Positions 1-9,502 of a DNA stretch of 9,502 nucleotides are shown one piece after another. The notes beneath the pieces were generated by a model, which saw only the letters and a list, made by a program, of their open reading frames with translations, had not been told where the DNA came from and ran no database searches. The stretch is from Nitrospinae bacterium RIFCSPLOWO2_12_FULL_45_22. GTDB lineage: Bacteria > 2-12-FULL-45-22. Position 1 is the stretch's first letter, and each line of letters begins with the position of its first letter. Both the position numbers and the translations under genes were made by a program. Location: NCBI GenBank assembly GCA_001803565.1, contig MHDQ01000058.1, positions 1-9,502 on the forward strand, written 5' to 3'.

Positions 1-176
1 ACTTCACATGCCCAGCTCAGGAGAAAAGCAGCCCCTAAAATAGATAGGCCAGAAAGGGAGGATATTAGCAGGGGATTCCCATCCATACCGCTAATCTTGA
101 AGACCAGCCAGGGAAGGGTAAGGGAAACCGGACTAATACACCAGATAAAGTTTCTCAGGTCACTCCTTCCGTTCAT
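1..176 (-). CDS. N-terminal part of a sodium/calcium antiporter-like membrane protein (runs off the left edge)
   Basis: Reading leftward from the ATG at 176-174 gives 58 complete codons with no stop before the window ends. The protein starts MNGRSDLRNFIWCISP and has two hydrophobic stretches: roughly residues 11-28, and residues 36-56, the latter ending GAAFLLSWACE. That second stretch resembles the first core helix of CaCA-family sodium/calcium antiporters, where a GAAFLLSWAAE-like segment precedes the ion-binding repeat. This is recognition by eye, not a search. A GGAG Shine-Dalgarno motif lies about nine bases upstream of the ATG, supporting the start. The gene is divergent from the korD operon, and its promoter must lie in or near the repeat-filled spacer. 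The reading frame is well supported; the exact transporter family is less certain because only the first helices are visible. Confidence 0.6.
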   Translation of the reverse strand, partial: MNGRSDLRNFIWCISPVSLTLPWLVFKISGMDGNPLLISSLSGLSILGAAFLLSWACE

Positions 177-199
177 ATTTATTACTCCTGAAGCCAATA

Positions 200-332
200 A
201 ATTCGTAACAGTTCAGGTTCTTTGTCATTTCGAGCGCCGCGAGAAATCTTTCCGAGACCGGAGGTAAATAAAGATTCCTCCCTTCGGTCGGAATGACATT
301 CATTTTCGATAGGGGCTGAGCGGTTACAAATT
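200..332. repeat. Nested palindromic dispersed repeat
   Basis: The inner arms are 223-251 (TGTCATTTCGAGCGCCGCGA and on) and 270-298, whose reverse complement begins TGTCATTCCGACCGAAGGGA. They are 29 nt each, most positions match, and the loop is about 18 nt. The outer arms are 200-217 (AATTCGTAACAGTTCAGG) and 315-332 (reverse complement AATTTGTAACCGCTCAGC), matching at 14 of 18 positions. TGTCATTCCGA-type palindromes and GTAAC-GTTCAG-type motifs are familiar dispersed repeats in many environmental bacterial genomes. One looks inserted within the other. There is no coding potential. It could affect expression of the flanking divergent genes through secondary structure. Confidence 0.75.
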
Positions 333-421
333 TTTTTAATATATTTGGTTGATTATACTAAAATGAATGCCTTTCTGCAAGGAACTTAGCCAGTGGAACT
401 TCCCGGAAACTTTCTTTTTTG

Positions 422-450
422 TTGCATACCTTCCTGGAAGTGGTTATTAT
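422..450 (+). promoter_or_regulatory. Weak candidate promoter for the korD operon
   Basis: TTGCAT (422-427) and TATTAT (445-450) are spaced by 17 bp, a good geometry for a housekeeping sigma factor. The -10 box matches five of six consensus positions but the -35 box only three. It points toward korD with a leader of about 270 bases. Another possible -10, TATACT near 353-359, lacks a matching -35 box. Such pairs occur by chance in AT-rich spacers, so this is only a candidate. Confidence 0.2.
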
Positions 451-502
451 AGTGTAGTAAAATAGCCTTGATGGACTTGCGCCAATAAGGACATATCTAA
501 AG

Positions 503-681
503 AGCCACTAAGGCCGCTAAGCTGAGCAGCAGCCTCTTACGCTGCCATTTTCGCAGCACCCATGGGGTATCCAGGCCCTGCGGTACTTTCTTATAGAAAA
601 ACATGTAGCAAGGGACTTTGCAGGAACATAGCAAAGTCCATCCCCTTACTTTAGAGGGATCCTTCGTGTCCTTTCGTGGCT
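503..681. repeat. Inverted-repeat element with CCACNAAGG-type ends
   Basis: The left end reads AGCCACTAAGG (503-513). The right end (670-681) has the reverse complement AGCCACGAAAGG, and the sequence just inside it continues as ACACGAAGG. A 5-bp direct repeat CTAAA flanks the element (497-501 and 680-684). CCACGAAAGGACACGAAGG-like motifs are another common dispersed repeat in environmental bacterial genomes. The interior contains small hairpins: GCTGC/GCAGC at 541-557 and the 9-bp stem at 613-639. The boundaries are approximate and the flanking repeat is short enough to be chance. Confidence 0.45.
613..639 (+). promoter_or_regulatory. Perfect 9-bp hairpin in the korD upstream region
   Basis: GGACTTTGC (613-621) is followed after nine bases by its exact reverse complement GCAAAGTCC (631-639). 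It lies about 90 bases before the korD start. No T-run follows, so it is not a typical intrinsic terminator. It may be only the core of the surrounding repeat element, or a structured part of the leader RNA. Confidence 0.35.
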
Positions 682-729
682 AAACAGTCACCCTGAATGA
701 AATTTTTTATAATGAGTTAGGAGAAGGAA

Positions 730-954
730 ATGACTGCGGGAGAAGTGCTTATCAAAGAAGATTTTTGCTTAGGGTGTGGTTATTGTGCAGAATTCTGCCC
801 CACCAAATCTATCGCTATTTCTCCGGAGAGGTTTAACTCTCAGGGGCACTTGTTGGCCGAATTTATTCATCCTGAGACTTGTAATGCCTGTGGGATATGT
901 GCCTGGATGTGCCCCCACTTTGCTATCGAGGTCTATAAGGTTCAAGGAGGTTAG
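730..954 (+). CDS. korD: Ferredoxin-type delta subunit of a 2-oxoacid:ferredoxin oxidoreductase
   Basis: This 74-residue protein is a typical two-cluster bacterial ferredoxin. It carries CxxCxxCxxxCP twice: Cys13, 16, 19 and 23 (CLGCGYCAEFCP), and Cys51, 54, 57 and 61 (CNACGICAWMCP). Each motif should bind a [4Fe-4S] cluster. In KorDABC/VorDABC complexes this small subunit passes electrons from the catalytic beta subunit to soluble ferredoxin. The start is supported by an AGGAG-rich site just upstream of the ATG. It opens the operon. Its last codons contain the AAGGAGG ribosome binding site of korA (944-950), so the two genes are probably translationally coupled. The family assignment is firm from motifs and gene order; the substrate of the complex is not determined by this subunit. 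Confidence 0.9.
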   Translation: MTAGEVLIKEDFCLGCGYCAEFCPTKSIAISPERFNSQGHLLAEFIHPETCNACGICAWMCPHFAIEVYKVQGG

Positions 955-960
955 ACAGCT

Positions 961-2058
961 ATGAATGAGAGAATCTTCGTAAACGGAAATGAAGCCGTTG
1001 GCTGGGGGGCATTAGCTGCCGATTGTCGGGCCTTCTTTGGCTACCCTATAACACCCCAAAATGAAGTTACAGAATGGTTTGCCCGGGAATTTCCCAAGCG
1101 GGGCCGGATTTTTATCCAGACTTCTTCTGAAACGGCTTCTATCAACTGGCTTTACGGCGGGGCATGTGTAGGGGCCCGGGTTATGACCTCTACTTCTAGT
1201 CCGGGCTGGGCCCTTATGCAAGAGACTATTTCCCATATGGTCAATACCGAGGTGCCTTGTGTAGTTGTCCTGGTGCAACGCGGTGGCCCCGGGCAAGGCA
1301 CTACCCGTCATGCTCAGATGGATTATGCCTCAGCCACCTGGGGGGGTGGCCATGGCGGTTACAAGAATATAGTATTGACCCCGGCTTCTGCCCAGGAAGT
1401 ACACGATCTCATGCAACTGGCCTTTTACCTGGCAGATAAATACTGTAATCCGGTAATAGTCCTGAGTGACGGGATTATTGGTACCATGATGGAGCCGATA
1501 GCATTAAGAGAGATAAATTTTAACTCTTTACCGGAAAAGGATTGGGCCTTACGGGGTAAAGGGAGACGCAAAGACGGTCAGCGCCGGCTCTTAAGTTCTG
1601 GTCAGGGCTTAATACCCACCAGCCGGAACCCTAATTACCTAACCTTACTCCATACGCTGCATAATAAGTTCCAGCAAATGGCTGCCCATGAAATAAGGTA
1701 CGAAGCCTCACTCCTAGAAGATGCGGAGCTGGTTTTAGTAGCCTTTGGCTATGCAGCCCGGGCTAGCCTCCAGGCCATGAATTGGGCTCGGGCAGAAGGT
1801 ATAAAGGTAGGTATGATCAGGCCCATTACGGTATGGCCTTTCCCCTCGCAGATTGTCAAAGAAGAGGCCGAAAAAGGGGTAAAATTTCTGGTGGTAGAAG
1901 ATAATTTAGGCCAGATGGTCATGGATGTTAAGATGGCCTCAGAAGGGAAGGCTGCAATCTATCTGGTGAGTGCCCTGGATAGGCACGAAGCTATGGAAGG
2001 CGGGGCTATTTATCCGGAAAAAGTCCTGGAGAAGATCAAAGAGTTGACAGCAAGCTGA
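961..2058 (+). CDS. korA: 2-oxoacid:ferredoxin oxidoreductase alpha subunit, copy 1 (VorB/KorA type)
   Basis: The 365 residues match the length and layout of the VorB-type alpha subunit. A pyrimidine-binding thiamine diphosphate domain comes first: GYPITP at 27-32, a probable cofactor-activating Glu57 in SSETASIN, and RGGPGQGTTRH at 107-117. A transketolase C-terminal-like domain follows, with GMIRPITVWPFP in its core. With KorB it forms the site that decarboxylates a 2-oxoacid and transfers the acyl group to CoA in the cytoplasm. The stretch GGGHGGYKNIVLTPAS resembles proteins annotated as 3-methyl-2-oxobutanoate (branched-chain) ferredoxin oxidoreductase, but this subgroup is broad and also includes aryl-pyruvate and 2-oxoglutarate enzymes. 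It begins six bases after korD and ends 14 bases before korB. It is clearly paralogous to the minus-strand protein at 6074-7174, starting at the same residue and sharing most motifs. Confidence 0.9.
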   Translation: MNERIFVNGNEAVGWGALAADCRAFFGYPITPQNEVTEWFAREFPKRGRIFIQTSSETASINWLYGGACVGARVMTSTSSPGWALMQETISHMVNTEVPCVVVLVQRGGPGQGTTRHAQMDYASATWGGGHGGYKNIVLTPASAQEVHDLMQLAFYLADKYCNPVIVLSDGIIGTMMEPIALREINFNSLPEKDWALRGKGRRKDGQRRLLSSGQGLIPTSRNPNYLTLLHTLHNKFQQMAAHEIRYEASLLEDAELVLVAFGYAARASLQAMNWARAEGIKVGMIRPITVWPFPSQIVKEEAEKGVKFLVVEDNLGQMVMDVKMASEGKAAIYLVSALDRHEAMEGGAIYPEKVLEKIKELTAS

Positions 2059-2072
2059 GAGGAGTAAGCGAT

Positions 2073-2837
2073 ATGACAGAGAGAAGGCGAATTACCGGTA
2101 CACCGAAGCTCAAAATCGAATTGCCCGTGCCCGTCGGCGCATGTCAGGGGTGTCAGCATGGGTCGGTTGGTAGGATAATATGGGAAGTGCTGGAAGAGTT
2201 GGAGCTAGGCGAAAATACCATCTGGATTGGAGGGGTAACCTGTGGCACTATGAATGCCTTTCTCTCCGATCTGGATGCCGTCGGGCCAGTGCCCCATGGC
2301 CGGGCTCCAGATATTGGCAGCGCTATGAAGCGGCTCCTAGGTAAAGAGACTATAATAATTACTTATCAGGGCGATGGGGATGCTATTGCTATTGGCACTG
2401 AGAGCCTTATCCAGGCAGCAGCACGGGCTGAGAGGATAACGGTTTTTATGGCAAATAATGCCAATTATGGTACCACAGGTGGCCAGATGGCCCCTACTAC
2501 CTTGATGGAGCAAAGGACCACCACTACCCCACAGGGCCGGGGTATGGTAGAGGGCTTCCCTATCAATACCGCCGAGCTGGTGGCCCAACTCAGAGGAACC
2601 GCTTATTCTGCTAGAGGGGCTATTACCTCACCAGCTAATTATCAGCGTACCAAGAAGTATGTAAAAAAGGCATTGCAGAAGCAGATAGATGATATTGGCT
2701 TCAGCTTTGTCGAGATACTATCTGCTTGTCCACCCAACTGGGGCAAAAAACCGGTTGATTGCTTGAAGTGGATAGATGATGAGATGATCAGCCAATATCC
2801 CCTGGGAGAATTTAGAGACCTGGAGAGCCTTAATTAA
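2073..2837 (+). CDS. korB: 2-oxoacid:ferredoxin oxidoreductase beta subunit, copy 1 (thiamine diphosphate and Fe-S binding)
   Basis: The 254-residue beta subunit has the expected set of motifs. Cys24 and Cys27 (ACQGCQHG), Cys57 (GGVTCG) and Cys219 (SACPPNW) are the likely ligands of one [4Fe-4S] cluster. GDGD at 100-103 followed by NN at 128-129 and GTTGGQ at 133-138 is the Mg-thiamine diphosphate binding signature. The usual YGMTGGQ reads YGTTGGQ here. The C-terminal part, with LKWIDDEMI and YPLGEF, is characteristic of VorA-like beta subunits. GAGAGGAG precedes the ATG. The gene ends with a TAA inside TTAATTAAA, which is the left copy of a 9-bp direct repeat flanking an inserted repeat element; korC therefore now lies 183 bases downstream instead of about 11. 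The role is certain, the 2-oxoacid substrate is not. Confidence 0.9.
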   Translation: MTERRRITGTPKLKIELPVPVGACQGCQHGSVGRIIWEVLEELELGENTIWIGGVTCGTMNAFLSDLDAVGPVPHGRAPDIGSAMKRLLGKETIIITYQGDGDAIAIGTESLIQAAARAERITVFMANNANYGTTGGQMAPTTLMEQRTTTTPQGRGMVEGFPINTAELVAQLRGTAYSARGAITSPANYQRTKKYVKKALQKQIDDIGFSFVEILSACPPNWGKKPVDCLKWIDDEMISQYPLGEFRDLESLN

Positions 2838-3010
2838 ATAGCATACTAATTTCCATTCTGGACACAGATGAACACAGATCCGTTTCAATGCAAAATGCAA
2901 AATTAGCAATTAGCATTTCAAAATTAACTCCTTCTTGGTAATTGCTAATTTTATATTGTTAATTTTGCAATGATAGTTATCTGTGTGTATCTGTGTCCTA
3001 ATTAATTAAA
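2830..3010. repeat. Palindromic insertion element with 9-bp flanking direct repeats, between korB and korC
   Basis: TTAATTAAA occurs at 2830-2838 and again at 3002-3010, 172 bp apart. Between them lies a strongly palindromic, non-coding sequence. The outer arms are GGACACAGATGAACACAGAT (2860-2879) and 2979-2998, whose reverse complement is GGACACAGATACACACAGAT; they match at 18 of 20 positions. An inner perfect 14-bp inverted repeat, AAAATTAGCAATTA, pairs 2899-2912 with 2939-2952. This has the form of a small non-autonomous, MITE-like or REP-like element with a target duplication. Deleting one repeat unit rejoins the korB stop directly to AAAGGAGGAGACC and the korC GTG. ACACAGATGAACACAGAT-like arms are a familiar dispersed repeat in environmental genomes; the insertion reading is inferred from the junctions. 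Confidence 0.8.
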
Positions 3011-3020
3011 GGAGGAGACC

Positions 3021-3566
3021 GTGAGTTCCGAAAGATTTGAGGTAATATTTGCTGGGGTGGGGGGGATGGGTGCTTTAACGGCGGGACAGCTCTTGGCTGA
3101 AGCGGCCCTAGCCTACTACCCATGCGTTACCTGGTATCCCAACATTACTACTGCCCGCAGGAACGCCCCGGCAGACTGTATTGTTATCTATTCCAAAGAA
3201 GTTATTGCCTCTCCACTGATACACCGGGTTGGGGCGGCCGTGATAATAGAATCTTCTCAACTAAGGACCTTTGAAGATAGGGTGAAGCCTGGTGGACTGG
3301 TTATAGTAGAGACTGCGGGCCTAAAAGATCATGTCAGCCGAAGAGATATCACGGTAAAGAAAATACCAGGGCTAGAGACTGCTTTACGCCTCGGTAATAG
3401 CCGGGCAGCCAACCTGCTTATGCTGGGGGCTTATATTGGTTCTACTAATACCTTGCCACCAGAACTGATTGAAGAGAAATTAGAAGATAGGTTTAGCAAG
3501 AACAAAAAGGTTCTCGAGATCAACCTAAGAGCCTTCCACGAAGGGATTAGGTTGGGCCACAATTAG
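3021..3566 (+). CDS. korC: 2-oxoacid:ferredoxin oxidoreductase gamma subunit, copy 1 (divergent)
   Basis: The 181-residue protein belongs to the POR/KOR gamma family. It starts with a GTG that follows a strong GGAGGAG site. The N-terminal Rossmann-like motif reads GVGGMGALTAG (residues about 12-22), where the family usually has GxGGQG. The next conserved region, normally like SYGxxxRGG, reads YPNITTARRNAPADC, so the RGG element is replaced; the minus-strand paralogue keeps it as SYATRVRGGPCEC. The middle and C-terminal parts follow the family well, for example FEDRVKPGGLVIVE and NLLMLGAYIG. The subunit completes the CoA-dependent complex with KorA, KorB and KorD. The substitutions may mean altered partner or CoA contacts, or relaxed constraint after duplication. 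The gene was separated from korB by the palindromic element and ends ten bases before tmk. Confidence 0.85.
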   Translation: MSSERFEVIFAGVGGMGALTAGQLLAEAALAYYPCVTWYPNITTARRNAPADCIVIYSKEVIASPLIHRVGAAVIIESSQLRTFEDRVKPGGLVIVETAGLKDHVSRRDITVKKIPGLETALRLGNSRAANLLMLGAYIGSTNTLPPELIEEKLEDRFSKNKKVLEINLRAFHEGIRLGHN

Positions 3567-3576
3567 AGGATTAGGG

Positions 3577-3689
3577 GTGAGCCATAAGCAGCAAGGGGCA
3601 AGGGGTAAGCAGCAAGCAGTAAGGAGTAAGGGGGAAAAAGAAACGCCTCACTGCTCACTGCTCACTGCTCACCCTGGTGGGCTGAGCCA
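3577..3689 (+). repeat. 105-bp heptamer-repeat insertion at the tmk N terminus
   Basis: GTGAGCCA (3577-3584) and CTGAGCCA (3682-3689) are direct repeats exactly 105 bp apart. The insert holds an imperfect inverted repeat: 3605-3631 and 3646-3672 (27 nt each) match at 21 positions. The right arm is CACTGCT repeated with a 7-nt period; the left arm is a decayed AGCAGTG/AGCAGTA version. Collapsing the direct repeat gives GTG AGC CAG GGT, an ideal tmk start. The flanking octamer itself resembles the repeat unit GTGAGCA, so it may be a seed for repeat growth rather than a target duplication. Confidence 0.8.
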
Positions 3690-4434
3690 GGGTGTTCTGA
3701 TTGCCCTGGAGGGGATAGATGGTGCTGGTAAAACTACTCAAGCCCAACTCCTGAAGGATTTCTTGCGGCAAAAAGGGTTTGAGGTCGTATGTTTTAAAGA
3801 ACCTACCCCGGGTCCTTGGGGGAGGAAGATTGCTGAGATTGCCCGATGGGGCCGCAAAGGGATTTCAGCCCAGGAAGAGATGGAACTCTTCCTTAGAGAT
3901 AGAGAAGAAGATGTAAGGGATAACATTTTACCCGCCCTAAGAGAGAATAAGATTGTTATCATGGACCGATATTATTATTCTTCTATCGCCTATCAAGGTG
4001 CCCTGGGCTTAGACCCCAACGAAATAAAAGAAATAAATGAACAACGGTTCCCTAAACCTGACCTGGTATTTATATTGACCATCCCACCGGCCGAGGGTAT
4101 TAAGCGGATATTAAGTAGGGGTCAGGGGTCGGGGATCAGGGGCCCGCAAAGAAGCCCAGCTTATGAGGAAGAAACTTATTTAACGCGGGTAGCTAAAATA
4201 TTCCATGAGCTGGCTAAGAACAAAGAACCAAGAACAAAGAACCAAGAACAAAGAACCAAGAACAAAGAACAAAGAACAAAGAGCTATGAGCCATCAGCTA
4301 AAGGACTATTAGAGCCGCCCTCAACTCACTGCTTACTCATAGATGGGATGCGCCAGATTAACATTGTCCACCAAGAGATAGCCCCGTCAGTATTAGACAG
4401 GTTGAGTCCTTTAATGAGGTGCTCGTGTCCGTAA
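3577..4434 (+). CDS. tmk: Thymidylate kinase with three in-frame repeat insertions
   Basis: This 285-residue dTMP kinase phosphorylates dTMP to dTDP for DNA synthesis. The P-loop GIDGAGKTT is at 46-54, and the DR(Y/H) motif of the family is at 130-132 in MDRYYYSSIAYQG. An EEETYLTRV stretch follows the LID region. The family is normally about 200-215 residues. The excess comes from three low-complexity segments: 35 extra residues after the GTG start, seven (GQGSGIR, 182-188) in the LID region, and 28 (215-242) near the C terminus containing NKEPRTK/NQEQRTK/NKEQRTK heptads. Without them the protein would be 215 residues and begin MSQGVLIALEGIDGAGKTT. No in-frame ATG or GTG lies between the GTG at 3577 and the P-loop, so translation must cross the N-terminal insertion unless a CTG is used. 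It follows korC by ten bases and is probably co-transcribed. Kinase identity is firm; activity with the insertions is unknown. Confidence 0.88.
   Translation: MSHKQQGARGKQQAVRSKGEKETPHCSLLTAHPGGLSQGVLIALEGIDGAGKTTQAQLLKDFLRQKGFEVVCFKEPTPGPWGRKIAEIARWGRKGISAQEEMELFLRDREEDVRDNILPALRENKIVIMDRYYYSSIAYQGALGLDPNEIKEINEQRFPKPDLVFILTIPPAEGIKRILSRGQGSGIRGPQRSPAYEEETYLTRVAKIFHELAKNKEPRTKNQEQRTKNKEQRTKSYEPSAKGLLEPPSTHCLLIDGMRQINIVHQEIAPSVLDRLSPLMRCSCP
4117..4142 (+). repeat. 21-bp heptamer insertion in the tmk LID region
   Basis: The sequence runs as AGGGGTC, AGGGGTC, GGGGATC and then AGGGGCC, a clear 7-nt period. AGGGG at 4117-4121 and 4138-4142 brackets 21 bp, or seven codons. Deleting one bracket-to-bracket unit turns SRGQGSGIRGPQRSPAYEE into SRGPQRSPAYEE, close to what thymidylate kinases show before the Glu-rich segment. 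A similar AGGGGTCAGGGATCAG occurs at 8694-8709 in an intergenic region. Confidence 0.65.
4213..4302 (+). repeat. 84-bp tandem heptamer insertion near the tmk C terminus
   Basis: Positions 4216-4257 are three exact copies of the 14-nt unit AAGAACAAAGAACC, which is two heptamers. Shorter copies follow, ending with AAAGAAC and AAAGAGC at 4271-4284. The translation is three heptads, NKEPRTK, NQEQRTK and NKEQRTK. GCTAAG (4213-4218) and GCTAAA (4297-4302) bracket 84 bp, or 28 codons. Joining them gives HELAKGLLEPPSTHCLLIDG, a plausible native sequence. A second possible bracket, ATGAGC at 4205 and 4286, would give 81 bp, also in frame. Confidence 0.7.
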
Positions 4435-4462
4435 ACTGTAGCCGGGAAAGACAGCCGGGCAC

Positions 4463-4531
4463 TCATTTTGACTCGAACATCTTTATACTCACCTTGTCAA
4501 TCCCTGCTGCTCTCCGATTCCGCTTGACCAT
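4463..4531 (-). pseudogene. Possible fragment of a group II intron-type reverse transcriptase
   Basis: A 22-codon minus-strand reading begins at the ATG at 4531 and ends with TGA. It contains RAAGIDKVSIKMFES. This resembles the N-terminal region of group II intron reverse transcriptases, where a segment like NKGAAGIDGVTxxxFE precedes the polymerase domain. Nothing else of such a protein is present nearby. The match is short and by eye, so it may be coincidence. It lies just downstream of the CopG remnant on the same strand, which fits a spacer of mobile and toxin-antitoxin debris between the two convergent operons. Confidence 0.35.
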
Positions 4532-4534
4532 TTT

Positions 4535-4714
4535 TTAGACCACTTCTTTCAATTTTCCACTGACAAGCTTGTGCAACGTACTTGAAATCAGGGTCTGATA
4601 GGGAATGCCTTCTTTGGCGGCTCTTTTCTGGATCCTCTCCAAATCGCGGGATGAGATTCTGATATTGATGCGTTTGTCTTTCTGAAAGGTGTTCCGAGCC
4701 GTTCTGCGGTGATA
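4535..4714 (-). pseudogene. Truncated CopG/ribbon-helix-helix antitoxin (COG5304-like)
   Basis: An open minus-strand frame from 4714 to the TAA at 4535-4537 encodes ARNTFQKDKRINIRISSRDL, followed by ERIQKRAAKEGIPYQTLISS and a C terminus ending GKLKEVV. This is the conserved C-terminal part of COG5304-type antitoxins, whose DNA-binding ribbon sits at KRINIRIS. Complete members have about 80-95 residues; here about 59 remain. A TAA stop lies immediately upstream in frame (4715-4717), and no ATG, GTG or well-placed TTG exists, so the N-terminal third is lost or shifted out of frame. No partner toxin is visible. The remnant begins 38 bases past the end of the minus-strand korC, suggesting that a rearrangement broke it there. 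Confidence 0.7.
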
Positions 4715-4752
4715 TTAATTCCTCACAAGATACTGAGCAATTACGAAAATTC

Positions 4753-5310
4753 CTATGCGATAAACTTAATTCCTGCACGGAAGGCTTGCTGGTTCAACGA
4801 TAAAATTGCCTCTTTATCCCTAAACCTCTCATGAAGCTTTTTCTCTATAGATTCAGGAGAAAGGGCTTTGGTAAGAGCCAGGTAAGCCCCCAGAAGAACC
4901 ATATTTGAAGCCAACTTACTACCCAGACTTAGAGCGATTTCCTGGGCAGGTATAGCTTTCAGTTTGATATCTTCCCTTCCTACCTCATCAACTAAACCAC
5001 TACTTTCTACCAAGATCAATCCTCTGGGTCGTACCCTGTTTTCAAAGGGTTTCAGGTAGAGTGGACTTGCCAGGATCGCTACTGCAGATTTAGAAAGTAA
5101 AGGGGAATATATCTCTTCATGAGATAGGATGACGGTACATTCACACGGCCCTCCCCGTACCCGGGTAGCATATGATGGTGTCCAAACGATATGCCGGTAC
5201 TCGGTAAGACCTGCCTCGGCTAAAATCAAACCAGCGACCAGGACCCCCTGGCCACCGATCCCTGCTATTATCACCTCCGCCCGGTTATTTTCTTCTCTTA
5301 CCATATTCAT
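4753..5310 (-). CDS. korC: 2-oxoacid:ferredoxin oxidoreductase gamma subunit, copy 2
   Basis: The 185-residue protein is a regular POR/KOR gamma subunit. It keeps the canonical GIGGQGVLVAG near residues 17-27 and WTPSYATRVRGGPCECTVI, which contains the RGG element missing in copy 1. FENRVRPRGLILVESSG and NMVLLGAYLALTKALSPESI also follow the family. It should complete the CoA-dependent complex encoded by korA and korB of this operon. The ATG at 5310 follows an AAGGAG site; a second ATG three codons later is possible. Only seven bases separate it from korB, so it is co-transcribed. It is the last gene of the minus-strand operon; beyond its stop lies the truncated antitoxin, with no clear terminator hairpin. 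Confidence 0.9.
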   Translation of the reverse strand: MNMVREENNRAEVIIAGIGGQGVLVAGLILAEAGLTEYRHIVWTPSYATRVRGGPCECTVILSHEEIYSPLLSKSAVAILASPLYLKPFENRVRPRGLILVESSGLVDEVGREDIKLKAIPAQEIALSLGSKLASNMVLLGAYLALTKALSPESIEKKLHERFRDKEAILSLNQQAFRAGIKFIA

Positions 5311-5317
5311 AAGCTCC

Positions 5318-6070
5318 TTAAAGCTGATCTACGTTTTTGAATTCTCCCAGTGGGAATTGGGGAATCATCTGCCCCTCCATCCATTTAAGGCTTTCTAAGG
5401 GACTCATATGCCAACCTGTAGGGCAGGCAGACAGTATCTCTAAAAAGCTAAAGCCTACTCCATCCATCTGCTTTTGCAAGGCTCTTTTCAGGTAGCTCTT
5501 TGTTTGATGAAAATTTTTTATATTATTAACCGCACCTCGGGCACTAAAAGCCACACCCTTAATAGCAGCAGCTAATTCAGCCATATTTATGGGATAACCC
5601 AACGAGGGATTACGGCCCTCGGGCGTAGTAGATGTGATCTGCCCCATAATGCTAGTAGGGGCCAATTGTCCACCGGTCATGGCATAATGGCCATTATTTA
5701 GCATCAACTGGGTAAACTTCTCCGCCCTCCCTGCCGCATTAAGGAAAGCACCGGCACCAATAGCTGCCACATCTCCATCTCCTCCAAAAACCAGGACAAT
5801 ACTTTCTGGCGAGGCCCGCTTTATACCCGTTGCTACATCAATACACTGACCATGATTAGGCATAACGGTATCAGTCGGAGTATTGAGCAATATCCCAGCA
5901 CCACAAGCAGCCCCTCCTACAACCACCGTCTCCCCTACAATCCCCATCTCTTCTATAACCTCAAAAATGATTCGATAAACAATAGGATACTGGCACCCTC
6001 CACATTCCTGCCGCTCAGCAAAATGACTGAGCCAAATATTTGGCAATCCACAGATACGCTCTTTATTCAT
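5318..6070 (-). CDS. korB: 2-oxoacid:ferredoxin oxidoreductase beta subunit, copy 2
   Basis: The 250-residue protein carries Cys23 and Cys26 (ECGGCQ), Cys56 (GGAACG) and a later Cys in SACPTGW as probable [4Fe-4S] ligands. GDGD at 97-100, NN at 125-126 and YAMTGGQ at 129-135 make up the Mg-thiamine diphosphate site. The segment usually like HGRA reads HGQC here, and the canonical CPGCxH is changed to CGGCQY, so this copy differs from the plus-strand one around the cluster. The C-terminal LKWMEGQMIPQFPLGEF is typical of VorA-like subunits. The ATG lies three bases after the korA stop, with an AAGGGGG site inside the end of korA, so translation is likely coupled. It catalyses the same step as the first complex; a different 2-oxoacid preference is possible but unproven. 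Confidence 0.9.
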   Translation of the reverse strand: MNKERICGLPNIWLSHFAERQECGGCQYPIVYRIIFEVIEEMGIVGETVVVGGAACGAGILLNTPTDTVMPNHGQCIDVATGIKRASPESIVLVFGGDGDVAAIGAGAFLNAAGRAEKFTQLMLNNGHYAMTGGQLAPTSIMGQITSTTPEGRNPSLGYPINMAELAAAIKGVAFSARGAVNNIKNFHQTKSYLKRALQKQMDGVGFSFLEILSACPTGWHMSPLESLKWMEGQMIPQFPLGEFKNVDQL

Positions 6071-6073
6071 GCC

Positions 6074-7174
6074 TTACGCCCCCTTCAAAATTTCTTCCAA
6101 AACCCTCTCGGGTAAGATCATACCCACGTCAGTTGGGTCATGCCGGGCTAGGGCCCCCAAAAGACTCACTTCAGCCATCCCCTGTACTGCCATCTTGACA
6201 TCTTCCACCAACTGGCCAAGGCTATCTTCCACCACAAGGAATTTAGCCCCATTCAAGGCCTTTTCCCTGATAATCTGGTAGGGAAAGGGCCAGGCAGTAA
6301 TGGGGCGTATCATGCCAACTTTTATCCCCTCTTTCCTGGCCAATACGATAGCTTCCTTAGATACTCTTGCGGTATATCCATAGGATACTATTATTATTTC
6401 AGCATTATCGGCCTCAAAGGTGTCATACCGCACCTCTTCCTTCTCCATCATCATATATTTTTTATTTAAGGCCTCTAAAAGCTGCAAATAATTAGCATAG
6501 GGAGGATGTGGTGGAGTGGGCATTAGGCCCTGCATAGCCATAACCACCCTTCGTCTACCGTCCTTATGCCACTTAAGTCCTTTTATAGCCCAATCTTTTT
6601 CAGGCAGTGGAGCAAAGCTACGGCTCCTTAATTCCAGAGGCTCTATCATCTGACCCAATATCCCATCAGACAATAATATCACCAGGTTTCTATATTTATC
6701 TGCCAGATAGAAGGCCAGTTGGGTAAGGTAATAGATTTCCTGAACCGATGCCGGGGCAAGGACTATATTTTTATATCCCCCCTGCCCACCACCCCGGGTT
6801 ACAGACAAGTAATCCATTTGGCCATGGCGGGTAGTACCGGCCCCCGGACCACCCCTTTGTACATTGACGATCACACAGGGTACCTCAGCATTGGCTATAC
6901 TAGATATGCCTTCCTGCATCAGGCCCCAGCCTGGCCCCGATGTAGTAGTAATGGCCCTAACACCAGTAGCGGCTGCTCCAAACAGCATATTAATAGAACC
7001 GGTCTCTGATTGCGATTGAACAAAACAACCCCCGCGTTTGGGGAGCTCCCGGGCAAACCACTCCGTAATTTCATTTTGTGGGGTAACCGGATAACCGAAA
7101 AAATGTAGACAACCTGCGGCTATAGCCCCCCACCCCACCGCCTCATTGCCAGTTACCAGGATCCTCTCGGTCAC
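6074..7174 (-). CDS. korA: 2-oxoacid:ferredoxin oxidoreductase alpha subunit, copy 2 (VorB/KorA type)
   Basis: The 366-residue protein starts at GTG 7174, preceded by AAGGAGGGG, and has the same layout as the plus-strand copy. GYPVTP is at 27-32, SQSETGSINM contains the probable activating Glu57, and RGGPGAGTTRH sits near 107-117. The C-terminal transketolase-like domain includes MIRPITAWPFP. GGGQGGYKNIVLAPASVQEI and SDGILGQMIEP are closer to consensus VorB sequences than copy 1 is. Together with KorB it forms the thiamine diphosphate active site. It lies 36 bases after the ubiD stop, so both are probably transcribed together. No ferredoxin-like delta subunit gene accompanies this operon in the window. 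Confidence 0.9.
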   Translation of the reverse strand: MTERILVTGNEAVGWGAIAAGCLHFFGYPVTPQNEITEWFARELPKRGGCFVQSQSETGSINMLFGAAATGVRAITTTSGPGWGLMQEGISSIANAEVPCVIVNVQRGGPGAGTTRHGQMDYLSVTRGGGQGGYKNIVLAPASVQEIYYLTQLAFYLADKYRNLVILLSDGILGQMIEPLELRSRSFAPLPEKDWAIKGLKWHKDGRRRVVMAMQGLMPTPPHPPYANYLQLLEALNKKYMMMEKEEVRYDTFEADNAEIIIVSYGYTARVSKEAIVLARKEGIKVGMIRPITAWPFPYQIIREKALNGAKFLVVEDSLGQLVEDVKMAVQGMAEVSLLGALARHDPTDVGMILPERVLEEILKGA

Positions 7175-7210
7175 GTATTCCCCTCCTTACAAATAATTCG
7201 CTTCTGTCAG

Positions 7211-8572
7211 CTACGGGTTATCAATTTTTTGCTGTTCGACTATAGTTTTTAGTCGAGCCATTACATCCTGGGATATACCTGCCCGTTCAAAGCGCTCCGG
7301 TTGGTCCAATGGCTTAGTAGCATCAATAGACCAAACGGATGAATAATACTTATCTCCTATCTGCCTGGATGAGGGATCAAACTCCATCCATTCTATTCCA
7401 GAGATAATCCGTATATCTGTGTCTGGCTGGCAGCGCGTAGCGATTGCCCATTCTATATCTTTAGGATCATCAATGTTTACATCGGTATCCACTACAACAA
7501 TTAGCTTAGAGTAAGGATTTAGCGAGCGTAAATGCTGAATGATTCCAGGCACATCATCTTGGGACCCCTTCTCTATTTGTACCACAACATGGAAGCCTAT
7601 CATGTTAATCTTTAATCTCTTTATTTGGGGAAAGGCTTCCCGCGCCTGGATGAAGAGTTCTGGAGTCCAGGTAAGATCAATCAAGGCTGAATCTTCGCTG
7701 GTATTGGGCATTAAGGCATGATAAATGGGGTTTTTCCTATGGGTAATAGCCCCGACTTTTGCTATATAAACCGGTTGACCGTGATAATAACCATCTGAAT
7801 CGCCAAACGGGCCATCTATTTCCCTTAGGCCAGGGATGAGCCGGCCTTCCAGGATAAATTCGGCCCTGGCTGGAACTTCCAAATCAATAGATTCAGCCCT
7901 GGTTATCTCTAATGGCCCACCCCGTAATGCACCACCAAGCTCATACTTATCTACCCCTTCCGGTGCGAAGGCCACGGAGGAGAAAAAGGTCATGGGATCT
8001 AGGCCAATTACTACTGCTATCTCCAAACCTACACCCTTTTCTTCCGCCTTCTGGACAATCCTGGACATGCCCGGAGAGGCAATCACTATGCTGAAACTAT
8101 CCTTATCCCTTATCCTGATACGATGAAGGCCCATACGATGGTAGCCGGTTTCAGGATGTCTAGCAACAGTAAGTCCCGATGTTATGTAAGGGCCTATATC
8201 TTTACTGTGGTGGGTTAGTGCTGGGAGGGTAGCCATAATATCAATATTATTACGGATTATAATATCTTTGACTGGAGCATCTTTCACTATTAAGGGTTTC
8301 AATAAAGTTTTACGGCGGGCAAGGTATTCCTCCCCAAGGTCTTTAGAGGTATTGAAGGCCAGGCTAAGTAATTTCTCACTTCCTAAAAGATTGGCTACTA
8401 CCGGTATATTGTACCCCTTTACTCGATGGAAAAACACCACTGAACCGATCTTTTTATTTAAGAGTTTTATCATGCCCGCTATCTCCTGGACAGGCGAGAG
8501 TTCTTCCCAGATATGGAATATATCCCCAGACTGATCCAAAAAGGCCAAAAAATCCCTCAGGTCTCTATACAT
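7211..8572 (-). CDS. ubiD: UbiD-family decarboxylase with non-consensus active site
   Basis: UbiD enzymes use prenylated FMN to reversibly (de)carboxylate aromatic or unsaturated acids. The protein has 453 residues from the ATG at 8572, where MYRDLRDFLAFL matches usual UbiD starts and GGGGG-AGCAAGGGGT gives a ribosome site. An in-frame ATG at 8590 adds six residues but lacks such a site. Recognisable motifs are ATLPALTHHSKDIGPYIT, HRMGLHRI (145-152), DKYELGGALRGGPLEI and IDGPFGDSDGYY. By eye, some positions differ from characterised members. The Asn of NxGxxR is Arg146, while the Arg is kept as Arg151. The first Glu of EGPFG(E/D) is Asp253. The His-bearing segment after the Arg reads SIVIASPGMSR. 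It heads the second kor operon, suggesting it supplies or consumes a metabolite of that complex. Menaquinone-pathway MqnL and aromatic acid decarboxylases are alternatives; the substrate cannot be told. No UbiX prenyltransferase is seen. Confidence 0.85.
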   Translation of the reverse strand: MYRDLRDFLAFLDQSGDIFHIWEELSPVQEIAGMIKLLNKKIGSVVFFHRVKGYNIPVVANLLGSEKLLSLAFNTSKDLGEEYLARRKTLLKPLIVKDAPVKDIIIRNNIDIMATLPALTHHSKDIGPYITSGLTVARHPETGYHRMGLHRIRIRDKDSFSIVIASPGMSRIVQKAEEKGVGLEIAVVIGLDPMTFFSSVAFAPEGVDKYELGGALRGGPLEITRAESIDLEVPARAEFILEGRLIPGLREIDGPFGDSDGYYHGQPVYIAKVGAITHRKNPIYHALMPNTSEDSALIDLTWTPELFIQAREAFPQIKRLKINMIGFHVVVQIEKGSQDDVPGIIQHLRSLNPYSKLIVVVDTDVNIDDPKDIEWAIATRCQPDTDIRIISGIEWMEFDPSSRQIGDKYYSSVWSIDATKPLDQPERFERAGISQDVMARLKTIVEQQKIDNP

Positions 8573-8657
8573 ACCCCTTGCTCCCCCCATACAAATTGCG
8601 GTAAGAAGGCTGCCTTTTGCATTGGTTTATGCTATTATTACCCTCTAAAATTACCCA

Positions 8658-8720
8658 TTGCCTGGAAAAGATAAATTCACCGTAACAGTTCACAGGGGTC
8701 AGGGATCAGTTGTCAGGCAA
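8658..8720. repeat. Dispersed repeat upstream of ubiD with GTAACAGTTCA and GGGGTCA units
   Basis: CGTAACAGTTCA (8681-8692) repeats the motif at 204-215 in the left spacer. AGGGGTCAGGGATCAG (8694-8709) has the 7-nt period of the tmk LID insertion. A perfect 7-bp inverted pair, TTGCCTG (8658-8664) and CAGGCAA (8714-8720), brackets both. A second pair, GGAAAAG (8664-8670) and CTTTTCC (8722-8728), overlaps it. There is no coding potential. It lies about 90 bases upstream of the ubiD start, so it may influence that promoter, but I see no confident promoter boxes here. Confidence 0.5.
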
Positions 8721-8755
8721 GCTTTTCCTCAAAGATATCCAGGGGCTATGAATCC

Positions 8756-8833
8756 TTATTTAGAGTTTTTTCCTGAACCCCGTGAACGATAGAATTCAGC
8801 GGCGCGGGTTACCGCATCCGCTGGATTTTCTTG
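8756..8833 (-). pseudogene. Possible C-terminal gene remnant, unrecognised
   Basis: A 25-codon minus-strand frame between two TAA stops reads QENPADAVTRAAEFYRSRG and ends in SGKNSK. Its composition looks protein-like, with an amphipathic ADAVTRAAEFYR helix, but no start codon is available. I do not recognise the family. It follows higA by about 20 bases on the same strand and might be the tail of a gene once downstream of the toxin-antitoxin pair, or plain chance. Confidence 0.2.
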
Positions 8834-8851
8834 TTAGTTGAATCTTTTTAT

Positions 8852-9154
8852 TCATACAGCGCTTGCATACGTCCTTACTTCTTGCTTCAACCTTTCGCCG
8901 AGTTCCTCGGCAGTGACATCTAAGTCATACTGTGATTGCAGTCCGAGCCAGAATTCGGCTGATGTTCCAAAAAACGTTGCAAGCCTGAGGGCGGTATCAG
9001 CAGTAATTCCGCGCTTGCCGAGAACAATCTCGTTAATTCTCCGTGGTGGTACACCAATATTTAGGGCCAGTTTATTTTGACTTATACCCATTGGCTTTAG
9101 AAATTCTTCCAAAAGAACTTCGCCTGGATGTACGGGATATAGCTTCTTCTTCAT
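8852..9154 (-). CDS. higA: HigA-family antitoxin (XRE-type helix-turn-helix)
   Basis: The 100-residue protein opens with VHPGEVLLEEFLKPMGISQN, the hallmark of HigA antitoxins. An XRE-type helix-turn-helix follows at about residues 25-44 (QNKLALNIGVPPRRINEIV). LRLATFFGTSAEFWLGLQ after it is also typical. HigA neutralises the HigB toxin and represses the operon by binding its promoter. The start follows a GGAGGAG site located in the 11-base gap after the higB stop, so the two genes are one transcript in the usual higBA order. The length is normal and no damage is visible. The likely target is the TAACG-N5-CGTTA site before higB. Confidence 0.93.
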   Translation of the reverse strand: MKKKLYPVHPGEVLLEEFLKPMGISQNKLALNIGVPPRRINEIVLGKRGITADTALRLATFFGTSAEFWLGLQSQYDLDVTAEELGERLKQEVRTYASAV

Positions 9155-9165
9155 AACTCTCCTCC

Positions 9166-9447
9166 CTAATGATAGTCGGTTATTTCTACATCATATGCAT
9201 CAGCTTCTTGGCAGGCAAAGCAAATGCGCCATTGGTCATTGATCCTAATGCTATATTGACCTTCACGGGCACCTTTTAACTTTTCAAGCCTATTCGCTGG
9301 TGGTATTCTTAAGTCATTAAGATTTTTGGCATTATTTATCATGCGTAATTTCCTTAATGCAACTTGTTGGATATCTCGTGGTAATTTGCTCGATCCCTCC
9401 CGACTATAAACTTTTTCTGTTTCCTTGTTTTTGAATGATTTTATCAT
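9166..9447 (-). CDS. higB: HigB-family toxin (RelE-like mRNA endonuclease)
   Basis: The 93-residue protein begins MIKSFKNKETEKVYSREG and ends DVEITDYH, both typical of the HigB/plasmid maintenance killer branch of the RelE superfamily. The conserved middle LEKLKGAREGQYSIRINDQW, followed by RICF, carries the Arg and Lys residues expected of ribosome-dependent mRNA interferases. The length is normal and the frame is intact, so the toxin is probably functional. Toxin precedes antitoxin, as is usual for higBA. The ATG lies only seven bases after the predicted -10 box with no Shine-Dalgarno site, which suggests a leaderless message. A start further inside would remove conserved N-terminal residues, so I keep this one. 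Confidence 0.92.
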   Translation of the reverse strand: MIKSFKNKETEKVYSREGSSKLPRDIQQVALRKLRMINNAKNLNDLRIPPANRLEKLKGAREGQYSIRINDQWRICFACQEADAYDVEITDYH

Positions 9448-9454
9448 TTAATTC

Positions 9455-9483
9455 ATTGTATAACGGCTAACGTTAAACGTCAA
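9455..9483 (-). promoter_or_regulatory. higBA promoter with embedded operator
   Basis: On the minus strand, TTGACG (9483-9478) and TACAAT (9460-9455) are spaced by exactly 17 bp; each matches five of six sigma-70 consensus positions. The spacer contains the inverted repeat TAACG-N5-CGTTA (9461-9475), including the perfect palindrome TAACGTTA (9468-9475). An operator placed between the boxes suits repression by HigA, since antitoxin binding would exclude RNA polymerase. The -10 box ends seven bases before the higB ATG. Confidence 0.7.
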
Positions 9484-9502
9484 GAGTTATATTGAGGGAG
9501 CA

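Follow-up and report, generated by a model that had tools for sequence, protein, structure and literature searches.

The window analysed here is a 9,502-nucleotide stretch of the genome of Nitrospinae bacterium RIFCSPLOWO2_12_FULL_45_22 (contig MHDQ01000058.1, positions 1 to 9,502). It carries on its plus strand a korB gene (2073-2837), encoding a thiamine pyrophosphate enzyme C-terminal domain, and downstream of it a korC gene (3021-3566), encoding a POR domain. korB ends with a TAA codon at 2835-2837 and korC has a GTG start at 3021. The space between them is taken up by a palindromic element bordered on both sides by the 9-bp word TTAATTAAA (2830-2838 and 3002-3010), the left copy of which overlaps the korB stop codon. 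The korC Shine-Dalgarno sequence, GGAGGA (3011-3016), lies outside the hairpin, just beyond the right border. The interval between the two words (2839-3001) is 163 bp long, or 172 bp with one copy of the repeat, and the coordinates given in a preliminary description of this DNA hold. Formal excision of the interval and one repeat yields AGGAGGAGACC and rejoins korB to korC with a gap of 11 bp, also as described there, compared with 7 bp in the paralogous operon on the minus strand of the window (korB 5318-6070, korC 4753-5310), which is without a hairpin.

Within the borders the element is built, on the plus strand, from several distinct parts. A left-end module, TAGCATACTAATTTCCATTCT (2839-2859; family consensus TAGYATAGGAATTTCCWTTTT), is kept in copies from the same genome and from Desulfobacteraceae. 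It is followed by an outer left arm, GGACACAGATGAACACAGAT (2860-2879), made of two 10-bp iterations, and by an inner left arm, AATGCAAAATGCAAAATTAGCAATTAGCATTT (2887-2918). The innermost loop, placed by the fold, occupies 2919-2939, and the inner right arm, AATTGCTAATTTTATATTGTTAATTTTGCAATGA (2940-2973), and outer right arm, ATCTGTGTGTATCTGTGTCC (2979-2998), were defined from sequence, arm complementarity and fold. The inverted arms (2860-2918 and 2940-2998) are 75% complementary across 59 nt. The hairpin spans 139 nt. The 163-bp interval has a predicted folding energy of -55.3 kcal/mol as RNA and -35.2 kcal/mol as DNA, with a z-score of -8.1 in each case relative to dinucleotide shuffles, and none of 200 shuffles was equally stable. 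According to the ORF list of the window there is no ORF inside the element. A scan of the hairpin against Rfam 15 gave no family at gathering score, only sub-threshold matches to microRNA hairpins, a terminator scan gave no terminator-like site and a promoter scan gave nothing useful.

Copies in the source genome and across phyla

The source genome (3.67 Mb in 321 contigs, 85% complete) proved to be rich in related sequences. Comparison of the element with its own genome by BLAST gave 100 matches, the best non-self match being 94% identical. Pattern searches of the same genome found the arm 96 times (6 with a reversed control), a longer outer-left pattern 46 times and a right-end pattern 21 times (none with the control in either case). 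Counted manually as distinct left ends, which leaves out right ends and another arm type, there are about 35-40 copies of the outer module. The aligned copies share a common left end, AATTTAATAGCATAGGAATTTCCATTTTGGACRCAGATGAACRCAGAT, and a common right end, CTGYGTCCTAATTAATTTAA. The preliminary description considered the insertion to be recent, a view that finds no support in the identity of the nearest copy or in the imperfect complementarity of the element's own arms. At two loci (L093 and L153) two elements adjoin, right end to left end, with a single AATTTAA word shared between them, and units can thus stand in tandem.

Beyond this genome, an exact scan of 257 billion bases placed the 20-mer GGACACAGATGAACACAGAT on no fewer than 117 contigs, spread over many phyla, the chance expectation being about 0.5 (2 x 257e9 / 4^20, equal base use assumed). 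Among the matches listed, the hosts include Desulfobacterota, Chloroflexi, Verrucomicrobia, Planctomycetes, Acidobacteria, Nitrospirae, Cyanobacteria and Proteobacteria, as well as one methanogen record, and again among the matches listed the inverted partner lies downstream in 59 of 91 occurrences. In Desulfobacteraceae the entire outer unit is conserved, including the left-end module.

One Chloroflexi genome, Dive96_bin10.46 (G394), contains about 55 near-identical CACAGAT hairpins (L335, L274, L347, L222, L272, L285 and L323), many of them at contig ends. They sit in the middle of units with other ends (TATACTGCCAACGGCC... / ...GGTCACAAAGTAACATT) bounded by TATA, and look to have been amplified recently.

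Copies with identical outer ends and CACAGAT arms differ in their loops. Half of the loops of 25 nt or more (14 of 28, a few loci being counted twice) fold with a z-score below -3, and these sort into four or more multi-copy groups with no relation to one another, besides singletons; the groups comprise hairpins of the GAGCAGTAAGCAGT, CCTAAATTCTAAAC and CAGAATTCAGAAG types and the window's own AATGCAAAATTAGC hairpin. The AATGCAAAATTAGC hairpin is also found without CACAGAT arms, and in other copies its own loop carries further hairpins. Loops may be insertion targets or may simply tolerate insertion. The best reading of these sequences is that the window element is a composite, in which a hairpin of the type associated with the 23S rRNA intervening-sequence protein (IVP) is nested in the loop of the outer hairpin.

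At one orthologous site (L329/L393, L390 and L394) related genomes have the same or a similar left end but differ in the hairpin core, a pattern that could reflect exchange of the core or a hot spot.

GxxExxY and IVP genes between iterated arms

Genes for GxxExxY and IVP proteins are often present in multiple copies, and we know of no role for either GxxExxY or the four-helix-bundle IVP. In one outer-module copy of the source genome (C219, at L089/L401) the loop contains a decayed GxxExxY gene, a finding that led us to search for both families. In this genome there are 12 matches to PF13366 (GxxExxY), five long and seven C-terminal remnants, and nine matches to PF05635 (IVP), and most of these genes sit between iterated inverted arms. 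The arm sequences are CACAGAGGCACGGAGACACAGAG, ACAGGATGAACAGGAT, CACAAAGGCACCAAGTCACTAAG and CACGAGATTAACACAAGATT for GxxExxY, and AGAACAAAGAACACAGAAC, TTCTAGGTTCTAAG, GGTCATTAGGTTATTAGG and AGCTGATAGCTCATAGC for IVP. Both arms of the window copy have counterparts beside such genes. An IVP gene of the source genome (L415) is flanked by arms like the inner arm, and in the deltaproteobacterium DeMMO6_18 (L302) an intact TIGR04256 gene (E 5e-39) lies between a sequence identical to the outer arm and its inverted partner.

The association was assessed over 45 loci, with control positions taken from the same loci. An arm score of 13 or more was found for 9 of the 12 GxxExxY genes of the source genome (0.6% of control positions), for 8 of its 9 IVP genes (3.9%) and, in other genomes, where many GxxExxY genes likewise lie within iterated inverted arms, for 15 of 24 (0.15%); the remaining 9 of these 24 have no arm above control. 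GxxExxY copies that are truncated and have CACAAGATT arms turn up at four loci (L403-L406), an indication that deletion derivatives spread as well. The window copy shares its arms and left-end module with L089/L401, and we infer from this kind of likeness that it descended from a gene-carrying copy. Missed in the preliminary description were the composite structure and the likeness of the element to a GxxExxY- or IVP-carrying element without its gene.

GxxExxY is a predicted PD-(D/E)XK nuclease, which makes a role in movement plausible; comparison of the protein with solved structures gave no match. The IVP protein matches structures 2gsc and 2rld, both of uncharacterised proteins, and its resemblance to the DGR protein Avd is weak (E 1e-5, under the curated cut-off); the latter may serve as a lead, and a lead only, toward a link with reverse transcriptases. 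GxxExxY is scarcely named in the literature searched, and the passage on it found there does not treat it as mobile.

Borders and empty sites

In Desulfobacteraceae the unit can be written as AACTTGA, TAGTATAGGAATTTCC...GTCCTATTT, AACTTGA. The corresponding border word in the source genome is AATTTAA-like, and the 9-bp repeat of the window falls exactly at that border, so that the direct repeat first noticed here does mark the true limit of the element and matches a family-wide AAYTTRA border. The repeat is less surprising than it looks, because both copies lie within AT-rich ends that the family conserves (AATTTAATAGCATAGGAATTT on the left, CCTAATTAATTTAA on the right). When left and right ends were paired across different copies the shared words averaged 4.6 nt, as against 5.0 nt for ends paired with their own partners (p 0.04-0.10), and in several copies the border words are unmatched.

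Since this test within the source genome is weak, orthologous sites in Desulfobacteraceae were used instead. Empty orthologues were sought by a family-level search with joined flanks, followed by alignment, and three sites were informative; the comparisons at L225, L326, L301 and L352 were set aside as involving other insertions, remnants or diverged spacers. At L269 the empty site reads TTTAACTCGATTTTTT and the filled site TTTAACTCGAT / element / TTTAACTTGATTTTTT; at L337 these are TTCTGACCTGAGT and TTCTAACTTGA / element / TTAACTTGAGT; and at L329 they are TTCCCAACCGGAGG and TTCTAACTTGA / element / TTAACTGGAGG. At all three there is one border word in the empty relatives and two in the filled ones, indicating that a site gains, on insertion, the element and a single extra border word. 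The left word at L269 is that of the empty site and the right word is the family consensus, while at L329 it is the right word that is the host's. Judged from these sequences, the second border word may be a copied target or may be carried by the element. For the korB-korC site of the window no empty counterpart was found, the sole genome of the same order compared being too diverged.

The view that this is a non-autonomous palindromic insertion is thus borne out by the many copies in its own genome and by empty orthologous sites of related copies, the latter being present in relatives at the three Desulfobacteraceae sites. The proposed target duplication has fared less evenly. One word in empty sites and two in filled sites speak for it; the unmatched words in several copies and the conservation of the word throughout the family speak against it. 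The suggested search of the genome for copies and comparison of their flanks was productive for copies of the outer module and gave only weak matching of border words.

Origin of the korB-korC element

We consider it likely, on the sequence comparisons above, that the window contains a non-autonomous composite palindromic mobile element, in which a GxxExxY-type hairpin without its gene holds an IVP-type hairpin in its loop and which has inserted at an AAYTTRA-like site. The point of insertion would lie between the korB stop codon and the korC Shine-Dalgarno sequence, with one AAYTTRA-like word at each border. The outer hairpin, consisting of the left-end module and CACAGAT arms, would be the gene-less form of GxxExxY carriers (PD-(D/E)XK type, TIGR04256/PF13366), and the inner hairpin, with AATGCAAAATTAGCAATTAGC arms, would be of the kind that carries the IVP gene (PF05635). 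A gene-carrying copy may have lost its gene through internal deletion, and the resulting gene-less copy could then have been moved by enzymes supplied in trans. The IVP-type hairpin could have entered the outer loop either before or after insertion between korB and korC. Counted against this explanation are the conservation of the right border word, which may belong to the element, the weak matching of border words in the source genome, the gene-less state of the window copy and the 9 of 24 GxxExxY genes of other genomes that have no arm above control.

Comparison with 23S rRNA intervening sequences (IVSs) is instructive. In Coxiella burnetii the S23p/IVP ORF lies in the loop of the IVS hairpin and cleavage by RNase III is known (PMC4990558), and in rRNA insertions of CPR bacteria the ORF is likewise in the hairpin loop (PMC11270868). 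The window copy resembles these sequences in that its terminal inverted repeats form a stable stem, that in full forms from the source genome the loop holds a gene of this IVP family, and that its distribution is patchy across distant bacteria, IVSs having long been considered possible mobile elements. It differs in being located within a protein-coding operon rather than a 23S rRNA gene, in having no IVP ORF in its loop, and in its nested, iterated 10-bp arms, the outer of which go with GxxExxY and not IVP. By analogy, the stem would be a candidate substrate for RNase III in the korB-korC transcript and may be cut there, with korC keeping its own Shine-Dalgarno sequence. No paper describing arms of the kind seen in the window emerged from our literature search, the coverage of which is narrower than the literature at large.

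The window element is also similar to MITEs in being short, ORF-less, multi-copy, palindromic and intergenic, with repeat words at its borders. It could simply be the MITE of a DDE transposon (an IS630-like one, say), the transposase of which would recognise the AT-rich ends and duplicate an AT-rich target, with the hairpins being passive filler and the link to GxxExxY and IVP a matter of hitch-hiking. The border repeats and one-copy empty sites would be expected in that case, and the near-identical hairpins of Dive96_bin10.46, placed mid-unit within other, TATA-bounded ends (TATACTGCCAACGGCCATAAAGTAACATT), indicate that hairpin and ends can be uncoupled. However, beyond the arms the two ends match poorly as inverted repeats, matching of target variants is weak and the evidence for target duplication is mixed, and no parental transposon sharing these ends turned up among the loci examined. 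In place of a known transposase the full forms have GxxExxY or IVP genes, and the gene link holds over many arm families and phyla, and for these reasons a DDE origin seems unlikely to us. A different precedent is provided by MITE families of Candidatus Thiomargarita nelsonii, for which derivation from PD-(D/E)XK-containing elements has been proposed (PMC4853749). These too are large, high-copy hairpin elements, which their authors connect with a PD-(D/E)XK nuclease family, although that family is another one (PFAM12784, 'Yhg-A') and the likeness noted here is one of description.

An origin as a single-strand element, IS200/IS605-like or REP/RAYT-like, is more doubtful still; here a Y1 transposase would recognise the hairpin, the left word would be the host target and the right word the element's own cleavage site. 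Such an element would have a border word at each end without a strict copy, as at L269, where the left word is that of the empty site and the right is the consensus; at L329 the asymmetry is reversed. The hairpin structure is in keeping with this mechanism, as is the presence of five Y1_Tnp matches in the genome, one of which (L119) is directly followed by a stretch that matches the left-end module at 23 of 26 positions, yet for none of the five were these ends seen on either side together. REP/REPIN sequences with their RAYTs (PMC2817692, PMC3116915) are dispersed extragenic palindromes, similar in this respect to the element described here, and Y1 transposases are present in the source genome. 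Their palindromes are short (20-40 bp) with a GTAG- or CGTC-type tetranucleotide tag at the foot, whereas the foot of the window stem reads TTCTGG and has no such tag, the stems are much longer, the linked genes are others and the hairpins are nested. The Y1 transposase-like gene at L119 (about 1270-2070) is itself flanked by GTAGTGGCAGG palindromes, and we regard this locus as suggestive only.

Least probable is a host regulatory element retained as a processing site or stabiliser that tunes korC output relative to korB, for which the position between two subunit genes, the very stable stem and the retained korC Shine-Dalgarno sequence might be cited, but which is opposed by related sequence at dozens of unrelated loci, by the hairpin-free paralogous operon, and by the lack of a terminator-like site or of an Rfam family at gathering score.

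Returning to the composite mobile element, a wider generalisation may be put forward, though we hold it tentatively and would not count on it. GxxExxY and IVP genes could serve as cargo, or in mobility, for a large class of iterated-arm hairpins that spans phyla and whose members preferentially insert into each other's loops, with GxxExxY acting as the mobility nuclease of one branch, and many ORF-less iterated palindromes in uncultured genomes could be deletion derivatives of this class. Placing both families in one such class would give them a common role that is open to testing, and the class would explain many intergenic palindromes of uncultured genomes. In the window itself the hairpin stands in a metabolic operon, a clean setting in which to ask whether such a stem alters the ratio of two enzyme subunits.

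Other features of the window deserve mention. Another hairpin of the kind described here (GTGAGCCATAAGCAGC...CTGCTCACTGCTCACC, 3577-3672) is situated after korC at the 5' end of a thymidylate kinase ORF, ahead of the point where the conserved part of the kinase starts, and the listed N-terminus of this protein is probably hairpin and not protein. Further into the same ORF, iterated AAGAACAAAGAACC units (4217-4283) run in frame (KNKEPRTKNQEQRTKN...) and resemble the arms of an IVP gene at L407. A copy of the left-end module, AAGTTTATCGCATAGGAATTT, is present without CACAGAT arms at the 3' end of the second korC (4747-4767, minus strand). Finally, two neighbouring small ORFs on the minus strand (8852-9447) have, from their translations, the look of a HigB/HigA-type toxin-antitoxin pair.
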